From: Clostridia bacterium
GTDB lineage: Bacteria > Bacillota > Clostridia > Oscillospirales > Acutalibacteraceae
Assembly (NCBI GenBank): GCA_017380575.1
Contig: JAFODS010000067.1
Location: forward strand, 36,573 to 100,572
Direction: 5' to 3'
DNA length: 64,000 bases
Shown: piece after piece, positions 47,842 through 52,080 of the stretch
How positions within the stretch are numbered: position 1 is the stretch's first letter
How the letters are laid out: each line of letters begins with the position of its first letter
Made by a program: the position numbers and the translations under genes
Notes under the pieces: generated by a model
What the model was told of the DNA's origin: nothing
The model's input: only the letters and a program-made list of their open reading frames with translations
Databases searched by the model: none

Positions 47842-47870
47842 GAGGAGCTGAAACCAGCTCCTCTTTTTTT
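47842..47870 (+). terminator. Intrinsic terminator after the hydroxyacid dehydrogenase
   Basis: Perfect 9-bp stem GAGGAGCTG/CAGCTCCTC with AAAC loop, followed by seven T residues on the plus strand. The end of spoIVA converges just after it. Confidence 0.93.
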
Positions 47871-49353
47871 ACAGTATAATGCAGATTAAACCACTGCAGC
47901 CTTCGTTAATAACTTTTTCAAGCGTTTCCTGAATTTTCATCCGTGCATCACCCGGCATCCTGAAAAGTTTATTATGTAAGCCCTCATTAACAAGCTCATG
48001 CAATGATTTTCCGAAAATGTTTGATTGCCATATCTGAGTCGGATTTTCTTCAAATTCTTTCAGAAGATACATTACAAGATCCTCTGACTGCGATTCACTG
48101 CCTACAAGCGGTGCAACCTCCGTGTTTATTGTTGCTTTCATCATATGAATTGACGGAGCACTTGCCTTAAGTCGCACTCCGTATTTACCGCCCTGACGCA
48201 TAATTTCAGGTTCTTCAAGACTCAATTCATCCATAGTCGGCATAACAATTCCGTAACCTGTAGCCTCAACCTCGTCAAGCGCATCTTTAATTCTGTCATA
48301 AGTCTTTTTTGTTTGCGCAAGCTCAGTTAAAGACGCCATCAAATCTTCCTGTGAATTAACATTCAATCCTGTTTTTTCTGAAAGAATTTTATAAAACATA
48401 TCATTTTCGACAATTGCATAAAGTGTAGCACTTCCGTTAGCAAGAGAAACATCTTTTGTTTCAATCTTGTTGATATATCTGCAACTGTTAAGATTATCTG
48501 CGAAATCAGTAATATCCCTTACCCTTTCGATTTTTTCAGCCTTTGATGAAATCGCATCAAAAATCTCACTTCTGAGCCAGTGCTTGTTTTCAAGTCCTGC
48601 AACCCATCCCGGAATCTCAATACGTACTTCTTTTAAAGGAAACTCAAATAAAACACTTGAAAGGATTTCTTTTATCATATTTTCTTCAAGAGAAAGACAA
48701 TCAGCCGGTATAACAGGCACATTATATTTTGCTGTAAGTTCATGTGAGAGTGACATTGTCTTTTCACTGCGAGGTTCTGTACTGTTCAACAGCACAACAA
48801 AAGGCTTACCTAGCTCTTTCAATTCGTTAACTACGCGTTCTTCTGCTTCGGCATATTCCGCTCTCGGAATCTCACTTATTGTTCCGTCAGTAGTAACAAC
48901 AAGACCAATTGTCGAATGTTCATTAATTACCTTCTGAGTGCCTATCTCTGCTGCCATATTAAAGGGTATCTCTTCATCGAACCAAGGAGTTTTAACCATT
49001 CGAGGTTGATTGTTTTCAATATAACCCAACGAACTTGGCACAATATAACCCACACAGTCAATCATACGTACATTGAAACGAGCATTTGACGGTAAATTCA
49101 CCTCAACAGCTTCTTCCGGAATAAATTTAGGTTCAGTTGTCATGATAGTTCTTCCCGAAGCTGATTGTGGAAGCTCATCTTTAGCTCTTTCACGCTTGGA
49201 ATCCTCACTGATATTCGGAATCACAAGCGTATCCATAAAACGTTTTATAAATGTAGATTTGCCCGACCGTACGGGACCCACTACACCGATGTAAATATCT
49301 CCGCCTGTTCTTGTGCGGATATCCTGATAAATATCTGTTTTTGTTGCAATCAT
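47869..49353 (-). CDS. spoIVA: Stage IV sporulation protein A (spore coat ATPase)
   Basis: Spore morphogenetic ATPase that polymerises around the forespore as the base of the coat, 494 aa. Starts MIATKTDIYQDI as in the family, with Walker A GPVRSGKS at 26-33; the TRAFAC-like GTPase fold has switched to ATP. The C-terminus ends CSGLICIIL. It strongly indicates that this organism makes spores. Single-gene unit preceded by a possible sigma-E promoter and a GGAGG ribosome site. Confidence 0.97.
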   Translation of the reverse strand: MIATKTDIYQDIRTRTGGDIYIGVVGPVRSGKSTFIKRFMDTLVIPNISEDSKRERAKDELPQSASGRTIMTTEPKFIPEEAVEVNLPSNARFNVRMIDCVGYIVPSSLGYIENNQPRMVKTPWFDEEIPFNMAAEIGTQKVINEHSTIGLVVTTDGTISEIPRAEYAEAEERVVNELKELGKPFVVLLNSTEPRSEKTMSLSHELTAKYNVPVIPADCLSLEENMIKEILSSVLFEFPLKEVRIEIPGWVAGLENKHWLRSEIFDAISSKAEKIERVRDITDFADNLNSCRYINKIETKDVSLANGSATLYAIVENDMFYKILSEKTGLNVNSQEDLMASLTELAQTKKTYDRIKDALDEVEATGYGIVMPTMDELSLEEPEIMRQGGKYGVRLKASAPSIHMMKATINTEVAPLVGSESQSEDLVMYLLKEFEENPTQIWQSNIFGKSLHELVNEGLHNKLFRMPGDARMKIQETLEKVINEGCSGLICIIL

Positions 49354-49478: not shown

Positions 49479-51755
49479 TTAAAGCTTATTTCTGATAATC
49501 TTTCCGCTTGTTGTTTTCGGAAGTTCATCCTTGAACACAACAATTCGCGGATATTTGTACGGAGCTGTATGCTCTTTAACGTACTTCTGAATTTCCTTCT
49601 TAAGTTCTTCAGTAGGTTCGGTTCCCTTTGTAAGAACGATACTTGCCTTAACAACCTGACCTCTTACCTCATCGGGAGCAGCAGAAACGCCACACTCAAG
49701 AACATAGGGAAGCTCCATAATAACATTTTCAATTTCAAACGGTCCGATACGGTAACCTGAAGACTTGATAACGTCATCAATTCTGCCGACATACCAATAG
49801 AAGCCGTCTTCGTCGCGCCATGCAACGTCACCTGTGTGATAAAGGCCATCATACCAGCATTCTGATGTTTTATCTTCAGAGCCGTAGTAACCCTTGAACA
49901 AACCGCAGGGAATTGTATCACCTGTTCTGATAACAATTTCGCCTTCTTCACCGACAGCAACACTGTTACCTTCAGCATCAACAAGGTCAACATCAAACGA
50001 CGGAACAGGTTTACCCATTGAACCGAGGCGATGGTCTGAACCAAAGAGATTACCGATAACAAGAGTTGTTTCGCTCTGTCCGAAACCTTCCATAACCTTA
50101 AGACCTGTAAGCTTGTTAAGCTGACGGAATACTTCGGGGTTAAGTGCCTCGCCTGCAATTGTTGCATGCTCAACCGAGCTGAGATCATACTTTGTAAGAT
50201 CTTCCTTAATCATCATTCGGTACATTGTCGGCGGTGCACAGAAAGTTGTAATATTATACTTTCTGAACATCGGAAGAATATCCGCCGCATTAAAACGGTC
50301 AAAGTCGTAAACAAATATTCCGCCCTCGCAAAGCCACTGACCGTAAAGCTTACCCCAGAGTGCCTTTGCCCAGCCCGTATCCGAAATTGTAAGATGGAGG
50401 CCGTCAGGATTTACACAATGCCAATAGTTAGCTGTAACAAAATGACCCAACGGATATTTATAGTTGTGTGTTGCAATTTTCGGATAACCTGTTGTACCTG
50501 AAGTGAAGAACATAAGCATTTCATCACTACCGCAAGCAGAATCTTCTGTTCTTTCAAACACATTGTTGAAGAGCTTGTATTCTTCATTGAAATTGTGCCA
50601 ACCTTCGCGAGCTTCGCCAACAATAATCTTGGTCTTAACTGAAGGAGCTTTCTCGGTCGCAAGGTCAACCTGATGTGCTGTATCACCGTCTGAAGTACAT
50701 ACAATTGCACTTACTTCAGCTGCATTGAATCTGTACTCAAGGTCATGCTCCTGAAGAAGATATGTTGCAGGAATTGCAACTGCACCAAGCTTATGAAGAG
50801 CAATAAGTGAGAACCAGAACTGATAATGTCTTTTAAGGATAAGCATTACCTTGTCGCCCTTTTTGATTCCGAGTGACTTGAAGTAGTTAGCTGTCTGTGA
50901 AGAATACTCCATCATTTCACGGAAAGTGAAACGACGTTCATTCTTATTCACATCAACGTGAAGCATAGCTGTTTTGTCCGGACACTTTTTGCCAAGACCG
51001 TCAACTATATCAAAAGCAAAGTTAAACTTTTCTTCATTTTCATATGTGAGTGAAATAAGTGCACCCGACTCATCTTCCTTAGGATGAATAAAGTTATGAT
51101 AAATTCTTTTACCCGTTCCTGTTCTTTTGGGAGATTCGTCATCAAATTTAGTATCACGTTCAGCAATATCACCGGATGTACTCAACGGGATAGCATAGAA
51201 AAATGCCGGTTCCGAGCTTGATGAAATCATACCGTGAGGTGTTGAACTGTCAAAATATACAGTATCACCTGCATTAAGAATTTCAATATGCTTACCAATC
51301 TGGAATTTAATAGAACCGCTGAGAACGATATCAAGCTCCTGACCTTCGTGCGTTGTAAGAGCGATATCTGATGCATCCGGTGCAGGATCACACTTAACAA
51401 ACAACGGTTCACAAATCTTATTTTTGAATGATGCTGCAAGGTTGTAGTATTCCATTCCGTGTGCGGAACTTACCTTCTGACCTTCACCGCGTCTTGTAAC
51501 AGTATATGTTGCAAGCTTCGGGCTCTTACCTTCAATAATATCCGTAACATCAACATTGAAAGCCATTGCACATCTGTAAAGGAAGGCAAAGTTGAGGTCA
51601 ACATTACCACGCTCACATTCAATGTATTCTTCGATGCTTACGCCTGTTTTTTCCGCCATTTCAGCAGGAGTAAATCCGACAATTTCACGAAGCTCCTTAA
51701 TTCTGTTCGCCATTTCGTTGATGCGAAAATCAAGTCCTGTAATTTCTTTAGCCAT
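49479..51755 (-). CDS. HTH-cupin-AMP-dependent acyl-CoA ligase fusion
   Basis: Three-part protein of 758 aa. Residues about 14-76 form an XRE-type helix-turn-helix (EMAEKTGVSIEEYIECERG). Residues about 110-190 form a cupin with THEGQELDIVLSG and PHGM, carrying possible metal histidines 136 and 174. Residues about 240-758 are an AMP-forming acyl-CoA synthetase of the MACS/acetate-type group, with phosphate loop TSGTTGYPK at 418-426 and catalytic Lys752 in TTSGK. The start at ATG 51755 follows an AAGGTGA ribosome site. A T-box leader controls it, so it answers to uncharged tRNA. An acyl-CoA ligase feeding amino acid synthesis is suggested. The regulator part may sense the acid or acyl-CoA; that is inference. 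Confidence 0.88.
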   Translation of the reverse strand: MAKEITGLDFRINEMANRIKELREIVGFTPAEMAEKTGVSIEEYIECERGNVDLNFAFLYRCAMAFNVDVTDIIEGKSPKLATYTVTRRGEGQKVSSAHGMEYYNLAASFKNKICEPLFVKCDPAPDASDIALTTHEGQELDIVLSGSIKFQIGKHIEILNAGDTVYFDSSTPHGMISSSSEPAFFYAIPLSTSGDIAERDTKFDDESPKRTGTGKRIYHNFIHPKEDESGALISLTYENEEKFNFAFDIVDGLGKKCPDKTAMLHVDVNKNERRFTFREMMEYSSQTANYFKSLGIKKGDKVMLILKRHYQFWFSLIALHKLGAVAIPATYLLQEHDLEYRFNAAEVSAIVCTSDGDTAHQVDLATEKAPSVKTKIIVGEAREGWHNFNEEYKLFNNVFERTEDSACGSDEMLMFFTSGTTGYPKIATHNYKYPLGHFVTANYWHCVNPDGLHLTISDTGWAKALWGKLYGQWLCEGGIFVYDFDRFNAADILPMFRKYNITTFCAPPTMYRMMIKEDLTKYDLSSVEHATIAGEALNPEVFRQLNKLTGLKVMEGFGQSETTLVIGNLFGSDHRLGSMGKPVPSFDVDLVDAEGNSVAVGEEGEIVIRTGDTIPCGLFKGYYGSEDKTSECWYDGLYHTGDVAWRDEDGFYWYVGRIDDVIKSSGYRIGPFEIENVIMELPYVLECGVSAAPDEVRGQVVKASIVLTKGTEPTEELKKEIQKYVKEHTAPYKYPRIVVFKDELPKTTSGKIIRNKL

Positions 51756-51780
51756 AAAATCACCTTTCTTCAGGGACATA

Positions 51781-52045
51781 AAAAAACCCGTCCCAAAGAT
51801 TTTCACTTTGAGACGAGCTGTAATAACCCGCGGTACCACTCAAATTGCACTGAAAGTGCCCCTTCAGACTCCGATAAGTCCTATGCTTTTACGCAGCAAT
51901 ACGAGAGGGTTCTACTGACATTATGCTTTCTTCCCTCCGACTCAGAAGCTACAGACTCAAGGTAATTATCTGTCGGTTTACACCAACCACCGACTCTCTG
52001 AAACAAACTACAATGAGCACTCTTCGTCATAGTCTTTACATATTT
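51781..52045 (-). promoter_or_regulatory. T-box riboswitch leader of the acyl-CoA ligase gene
   Basis: About 265-base leader on the minus strand. It contains the T-box sequence AGTGGTACCGCGG (51840-51828), the Stem I signature with AGAGAG and GGTTGGTGTAAACC (about 51995-51970), and a terminator stem GTCTCAAAG/CTTTGGGAC (51814-51790) with a T-run just before the gene. In the specifier loop (about 51956-51949), the triplet before the expected purine reads GTA, a valine codon; I derived this by hand from pairing of GAAG with CTTC and CTCA with TGAG. The class is firm, the codon reading is tentative. Confidence 0.9.
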
Positions 52046-52051
52046 TGAAAA

Positions 52052-52080
52052 ATATTATCATAATATTGCACTTTTGTCAA
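52052..52080 (-). promoter_or_regulatory. Promoter of the T-box/ligase transcript
   Basis: On the minus strand, a perfect TTGACA (52080-52075) and TAATAT (52057-52052) with a 17-base spacer, at the right distance before the T-box leader. Confidence 0.85.

Follow-up and report, generated by a model that had tools for sequence, protein, structure and literature searches.

The window analysed here, a 64,000-nucleotide stretch of DNA, carries on its reverse strand a gene for an AMP-forming acyl-CoA ligase with an N-terminal helix-turn-helix (HTH) and cupin part, preceded by a leader RNA with its own promoter and terminator. The features of the locus are the following.

52052..52080 (-): promoter, TTGACA-17 nt-TAATAT with TG ahead of the second hexamer
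51806..52039 (-): T-box leader, RF00230 positions 1-219, 91.4 bits, E 9e-21
51950..51952 (-): specifier codon GUA (valine), in the register common to the valS leader
51828..51840 (-): T-box sequence AGTGGTACCGCGG, whose UGGU fits the tRNA-Val ACCA end
51785..51819 (-): intrinsic terminator, 14 pairs and a T run, overlapping the antiterminator
51761..51767 (-): ribosome-binding site AAAGGTG, read directly in the sequence
49479..51755 (-): HTH-cupin-AMP-forming acyl-CoA ligase, 758 residues, Val type, ATG at 51755
51525..51707 (-): helix-turn-helix domain (HTH_19), residues 17-77
51189..51380 (-): cupin domain (Cupin_2), residues 126-189
49884..50990 (-): AMP-binding domain, residues 256-624, from a domain search
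49500..49736 (-): AMP-binding_C domain, residues 674-752, from a domain search
50367..50369 (-): Ala463 codon; the Val type has Ala at this residue and the Ile type Gly, and its counterpart in E. coli Acs is Val310

An earlier sequence-only reading had described the locus as a single gene for an HTH-cupin-AMP-forming ligase behind a T-box leader with promoter and terminator, and in each of these respects it holds: HTH, Cupin_2, AMP-binding and AMP-binding_C were all matched in the 758-residue open reading frame, the RF00230 match is full-length and is flanked by the promoter at 52080-52052 and the terminator at 51819-51785, and, for the window, the next gene begins 125 bases on, at 49353. This downstream neighbour is the sporulation gene spoIVA (47869-49353, minus strand). 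A PDB search with the HTH-cupin part returned only four weak HTH matches; our guess is that this part is probably a second regulatory layer.

The leader is a T-box. It has the Stem I specifier loop, the AGAGA and GGUUGGUG elements, the T-box sequence and the terminator of RF00230, and by this likeness would sense uncharged tRNA, but it differs in what it controls, which is an acid-activating ligase and not a synthetase, an ordinary biosynthesis gene or a transporter. The covariance match, which spans positions 1-219 of the model, lies 1.6 bits under the Rfam gathering score of 93, and for this reason a default Rfam scan of the window at that score reported no T-box. The valS leader of the same genome is likewise under the gathering score (92.3 bits), and 8 of the 14 T-boxes in the genome score below 93, so surveys using that score may undercount T-boxes in this group. 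Folding the window leader alone lent weak support (z -2.12, with 5 of 200 shuffles as stable), and shuffled sequences averaged 0.8 promoter-like and 0.3 terminator-like sites. Covariation was tested for Stem I, in two alignments that had been fitted to the covariance model; 97.2 and 97.0% of cells were paired, with both-sided (compensatory) changes at 11 and 12 of the 13 pairs, a level reached by none of 500 shuffles.

The 8-base specifier loop, just 5' of the helix CUUC, reads GUCU-GUA-G, which gives the codon GUA for valine; GUA-G-CUUC stands in the identical register in this genome's valS leader. The covariance-model match places GUA at 51952-51950, and the codon agrees with a tentative hand reading of GTA. 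We applied the same rule to nine further leaders of this genome whose genes are of other, recognisable kinds, and in eight of them it gave the gene's own amino acid (pheS UUC, tyrS UAC, O-acetylhomoserine sulfhydrylase AUG, trpB UGG, valS GUA, cysE UGC, thrS ACC and ileS AUC, the last being a cut gene piece named as best hit with a score under its cut-off); in the ninth, before aspS, no specifier was readable by the rule. The eight readable control leaders share alignment columns in a plain MAFFT alignment. At the other end of the leader, UGGU is complementary to the ACCA end of a tRNA-Val(UAC) present in the genome, so that specifier and UGGU both match one and the same tRNA. With tRNA ends taken from 30 of the 45 tRNA loci of the genome, tRNA-Ile not among them, the variable base of UGGN fits the cognate tRNA in all eight control leaders whose tRNA was read, being UGGA for Cys and Thr, UGGC for Trp and Asp, and UGGU for Phe, Tyr, Met and Val.

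The agreement between specifier and ligase type extends well beyond this genome. Relatives were collected as 80 loci from titled genomes (best matches to the query and so not sampled at random) and 29 from a search of 60 genomes, a set that includes the window's own, for a total of 109; by their titles the former are mostly Clostridia metagenome assemblies, many from herbivore rumen, rectum or caecum. A purpose-built Stem I covariance model found 158 leaders in the 109 loci. With ligase type set by best BLASTP hit, Val-type ligase leaders carry a valine codon in 83 of 83 cases (GUA 76, GUC 6, GUG 1), Ile-type leaders AUC in 60 of 60, and leaders of LeuA-like genes a leucine codon in 13 of 13 (CUC 12, CUG 1); a comparison of leaders among homologues had been proposed in the sequence-only reading. 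The swaps among GUA, GUC and GUG are synonymous, and so the amino acid is kept. The Stem I model was trained on 45 rows, namely 36 ligase leaders, of which 35 had been chosen for reading GUA, GUC or AUC and the other is the window's, and nine non-ligase leaders of the window's own genome put in to counter that bias; 34 training rows are among the 143 ligase leaders counted, and without them the codon match is 64 of 64 for the Val type and 45 of 45 for the Ile type. GUG and CUG, although absent from the training set, were still read by the model.

It is conceivable that the specifier frame is misread and that the leader answers to another tRNA, since the overlapping triplets UCU, CUG and UGU are also present in the loop. 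We consider this extremely improbable: the register is common to valS and seven other leaders of known genes, UGGU mismatches the tRNA-Cys (UCCA) and the two Ser tRNAs (GCCA) read in the genome, and the 83 Val-type leaders show valine codons only.

Reading specifiers by regular expression had left 21 of 143 T-box-motif leaders unread or misread, and was given up for the Stem I model. One hit of that model, in L063, was dropped as spurious (24.8 bits, GGA, no gene), and one Leu leader (L110) has no gene, being cut off by the contig end. Among 155 ligase starts, 141 are paired with a leader, three have less than 330 bases upstream, and in 11 with at least 330 bases upstream the model found no T-box; two further ligase leaders among those counted are unpaired to any ligase start. 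Three loci (L083, L095 and L098) have both ligases and no leader that was found. On a FastTree tree of 156 ligases the Val and Ile labels of 144 rows need one change, and 11 changes when the 12 unlabelled rows are taken as a third state. Of the 80 titled loci, 41 contain labelled ligases of both arms. Among the 59 loci that reach 4.5 kb past the Val ligase, 42 have a gene for VorB, a subunit of the 2-oxoacid:ferredoxin oxidoreductase VOR, within 5.5 kb on its downstream side, and in the other 17 none was found over that distance. A common arrangement runs T-box(Ile)-ligase, T-box(Val)-ligase, ATPase, ferredoxin, VOR.

In the window's own genome, four of the 14 T-boxes precede HTH-cupin-ligase paralogues, with GUA at the window copy and AUC (isoleucine) at the other three, whose ligases are 53-62% identical to that of the window; one of the three runs off its contig. 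One of the AUC operons, at L015, continues from the ligase into genes for a P-loop ATPase, a ferredoxin-like protein and three VOR subunits, with intergenic gaps of at most 14 bases or overlapping genes. Upstream on the same contig stands a CUC (leucine) T-box, followed by a LeuA-like gene and a TIM-barrel-ligase fusion. The relevant genes of L015 are as follows.

L015:15352-16785 (-): LeuA-like protein under the Leu T-box, LeuA_dimer domain kept
L015:12842-15349 (-): AMP-forming ligase fused to a xylose-isomerase-like TIM barrel, downstream of the LeuA-like gene with a two-base gap
L015:9495-10157 (-): P-loop ATPase of the VOR operon, between the ligase and the ferredoxin-like gene
L015:8199-9266: VorB (PRK07119), 545.7 bits against a curated cut-off of 399

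The VOR beta and gamma subunits adjoin VorB; they exceed the cut-offs of Pfam TPP_enzyme_C and POR and score under the NCBIfam cut-offs listed. By eye, the 68-residue ferredoxin-like protein has two CxxCxxCxxxC motifs. The P-loop ATPase holds the same place, in the interval between ligase and ferredoxin-like gene, in the VOR clusters of relatives. The sequence-only reading had suggested looking for such an oxidoreductase under the same codon elsewhere in the genome; VOR does share a T-box operon with a ligase, but the codon is that of isoleucine and not of valine.

In this gut bacterium the usual biosynthesis of valine, isoleucine and leucine has apparently been lost. In its draft genome we found no match to ilvC or ilvD and no intact leuA, the only LeuA matches being two parts of the degenerate LeuA-like gene, while a branched-chain aminotransferase is present above its cut-off. 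The sole acetolactate-synthase-like match is IolD, and was rejected as IlvB. This search covered ilvB, ilvC, ilvD, leuA and the aminotransferase, and as the draft is 88.8% complete, absences from it are not proof. Across 60 genomes, its own included and relatedness uncorrected, ilvC occurs in 15 of 44 with any ligase (ligases without the HTH-cupin part included) versus 11 of the 16 without a ligase (Fisher p 0.021). With the Val type judged from the best locus per genome, ilvC occurs in 2 of 12 Val-type genomes versus 24 of 48 others (p 0.052), and the same 2 of 12 set against the 16 ligase-less genomes give p 0.009. Genomes G002 and G005 hold a Val-type ligase together with ilvC and ilvD, which shows that one route does not exclude the other.

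We consider it highly probable that the window encodes the valine arm of a pathway under T-box control, one that converts branched volatile acids to branched-chain amino acids by reductive carboxylation. Antitermination by uncharged tRNA is the known mechanism of T-boxes, whose specifier and pairing partners are recognised in the window leader by sequence. GUA in Stem I would pair with the anticodon of uncharged tRNA-Val(UAC), and UGGU with the ACCA end of that tRNA, whose binding would stabilise the antiterminator and let transcription reach the ligase. The ligase, judged by family, pocket residue and regulation, would then convert isobutyrate and ATP to isobutyryl-CoA, which VOR, encoded in the Ile T-box operon elsewhere in the genome, would carboxylate with CO2 and reduced ferredoxin to 2-oxoisovalerate; a branched-chain aminotransferase would complete the route to valine. 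By the same steps the AUC paralogues would lead from 2-methylbutyrate to isoleucine, each arm being induced by its own uncharged tRNA, with isovalerate perhaps included. The leaders, codons, gene order and draft-genome gene absences behind this scheme are read from the sequences themselves, and from these we infer the substrates, the direction of VOR and the roles of the ATPase, the HTH-cupin part and the LeuA-like proteins. An earlier idea of a branched-chain amino acid route is supported by the valine specifier, the 83 of 83 homologue leaders, the ligase-VOR operon and the de novo genes not found in the draft genome.

VOR enzymes can work in either direction, and some anaerobes use them to ferment amino acids, which would allow ligase and VOR to act in the breakdown of branched-chain amino acids, VOR oxidising 2-oxoacids. 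Such a role appears very unlikely here, given that T-boxes switch genes on when an amino acid runs short, whereas breakdown would call for the reverse, that AMP-forming ligases run towards the CoA ester, and that the search of the draft genome turned up no de novo biosynthesis genes.

The nearest solved structure to the window ligase is MacsMa of Methanosarcina acetivorans (3ETC, E 3.2e-181), for which 2-methylbutyrate is reported as the preferred acid (PMC10455477). The match is to the ligase part only (window residues 242-755), MacsMa lacking the HTH-cupin part, and within it the Trp and Gly of the Macs acyl pocket are conserved: G559 of the window ligase aligns with E. coli Acs Trp414, and W467 with the alternate tryptophan (Macs Trp259, its place in 3ETC counted from the YHTGD motif). 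Val and Ile types are separated by ten positions nearly fixed for different residues, two of which lie in the ligase domain. At one of these, residue 463, Ala stands in 82 of the 83 Val-type rows (the remaining row did not fit the search pattern) and Gly in all 62 Ile-type rows; MacsMa, unlike the Val type, has Gly at the matching position. The aligned residue of E. coli Acs, Val310, we take to be an acetate-pocket residue; a progression from Val (acetate) through Ala (isobutyrate) to Gly (2-methylbutyrate) would be in line with residue size. The difference between the types falls on one tree branch and so counts as one event, not as independent proof. Family, pocket residue and regulation together point to isobutyrate as the probable substrate of the window ligase. 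The other eight separating positions lie in the N-terminal HTH-cupin part (residues 1-190), though it is the shorter, a hint that what is sensed or bound differs between the two types.

Among curated families the best match is MbcS (NF047394), like the window ligase an AMP-forming ligase; at 434.6 bits against a cut-off of 850, about half, the window protein was rejected as a member of this equivalog, and it differs further by its extra HTH-cupin part and its T-box control. MbcS of S. aureus has been characterised as activating isobutyrate and 2-methylbutyrate for fatty acids (PMC10026030), and by analogy the ligases could feed branched-chain fatty acid synthesis, with the T-box coupling this to amino acid supply. 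Despite MbcS being the best curated match, we think such a function unlikely: the cut-off is missed, VOR and ferredoxin-like genes lie within the same operon as a ligase, the draft genome showed no genes for de novo synthesis of these amino acids, and lipid supply would give little reason for paralogues to carry separate Val- and Ile-specific T-boxes. In contrast to MbcS, the window ligase is proposed to supply VOR and, through it, amino acids.

The chemistry is old rumen knowledge. From the 1960s on, Allison and co-workers, as cited in PMC7356843, described rumen bacteria in which isovalerate is turned into leucine, isobutyrate into valine and 2-methylbutyrate into isoleucine; the chemistry proposed here is identical, but as cited there it is physiology, linked neither to a set of genes nor to T-boxes. 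For the genes and their T-box control our literature search gave no match, in that no report of T-box control of such ligases appeared among the titles and abstract starts listed. The main text of one T-box survey (PMC2494555) does not contain acyl-CoA, CoA ligase, oxidoreductase or isobutyr, and neither branched-chain nor ferredoxin is mentioned in the portion searched of another (PMC3766115). The specifier codons would name candidate genes, predict substrates ahead of any assay and say when each arm switches on, so that an old piece of rumen physiology becomes directly testable. They may also help to predict which gut bacteria depend on others for isoacids, compounds that are used as a ruminant feed additive (PMC12272956), and acid salvage would be added to the functions under T-box control.

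The finding is larger than the valine arm, as it takes in isoleucine and leucine arms and a codon-matched set of ligases, often beside one carboxylating enzyme, in gut Clostridia among which ilvC is missing from many. In the leucine arm, the metal-binding HxH is absent from 18 of 18 LeuA-like proteins (that of this genome and 17 relatives, proteins of 350 residues or fewer left out) and TLRDGxQ from 16 of the 18, that is from all that cover that part; both motifs are intact in 16 of 16 comparison proteins. Ordinary chain elongation by a 2-isopropylmalate synthase was rejected for this gene on account of the lost catalytic motifs. A Leu T-box was found for 11 of the 17 relatives and not for six. 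We suggest that the LeuA-like protein is a dead enzyme kept as a leucine sensor, and that the TIM-barrel-ligase fusion may serve isovalerate. The window has a TIM barrel of its own upstream of the leader, which showed no similarity to the barrel of the fusion below E 0.18. It is tempting to speculate on a full three-arm system, in which ligases for isobutyrate, 2-methylbutyrate and isovalerate under matching T-boxes share one VOR, the dead LeuA exerts leucine-binding feedback on the isovalerate arm, and the ligases, by their HTH-cupin domains, themselves act as regulators that sense the acid or its CoA ester; in this complete form we hold the proposal to be possible but on balance doubtful.

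Two of the AUC T-box ligases, on the short contigs L016 and L017, are near-identical, perhaps through strain variation in the assembly or a recent duplication. After the third ligase lies a gene for a protein with an ACT domain and a metallo-beta-lactamase-like part (L016:1-1152, minus strand), cut at the contig end.
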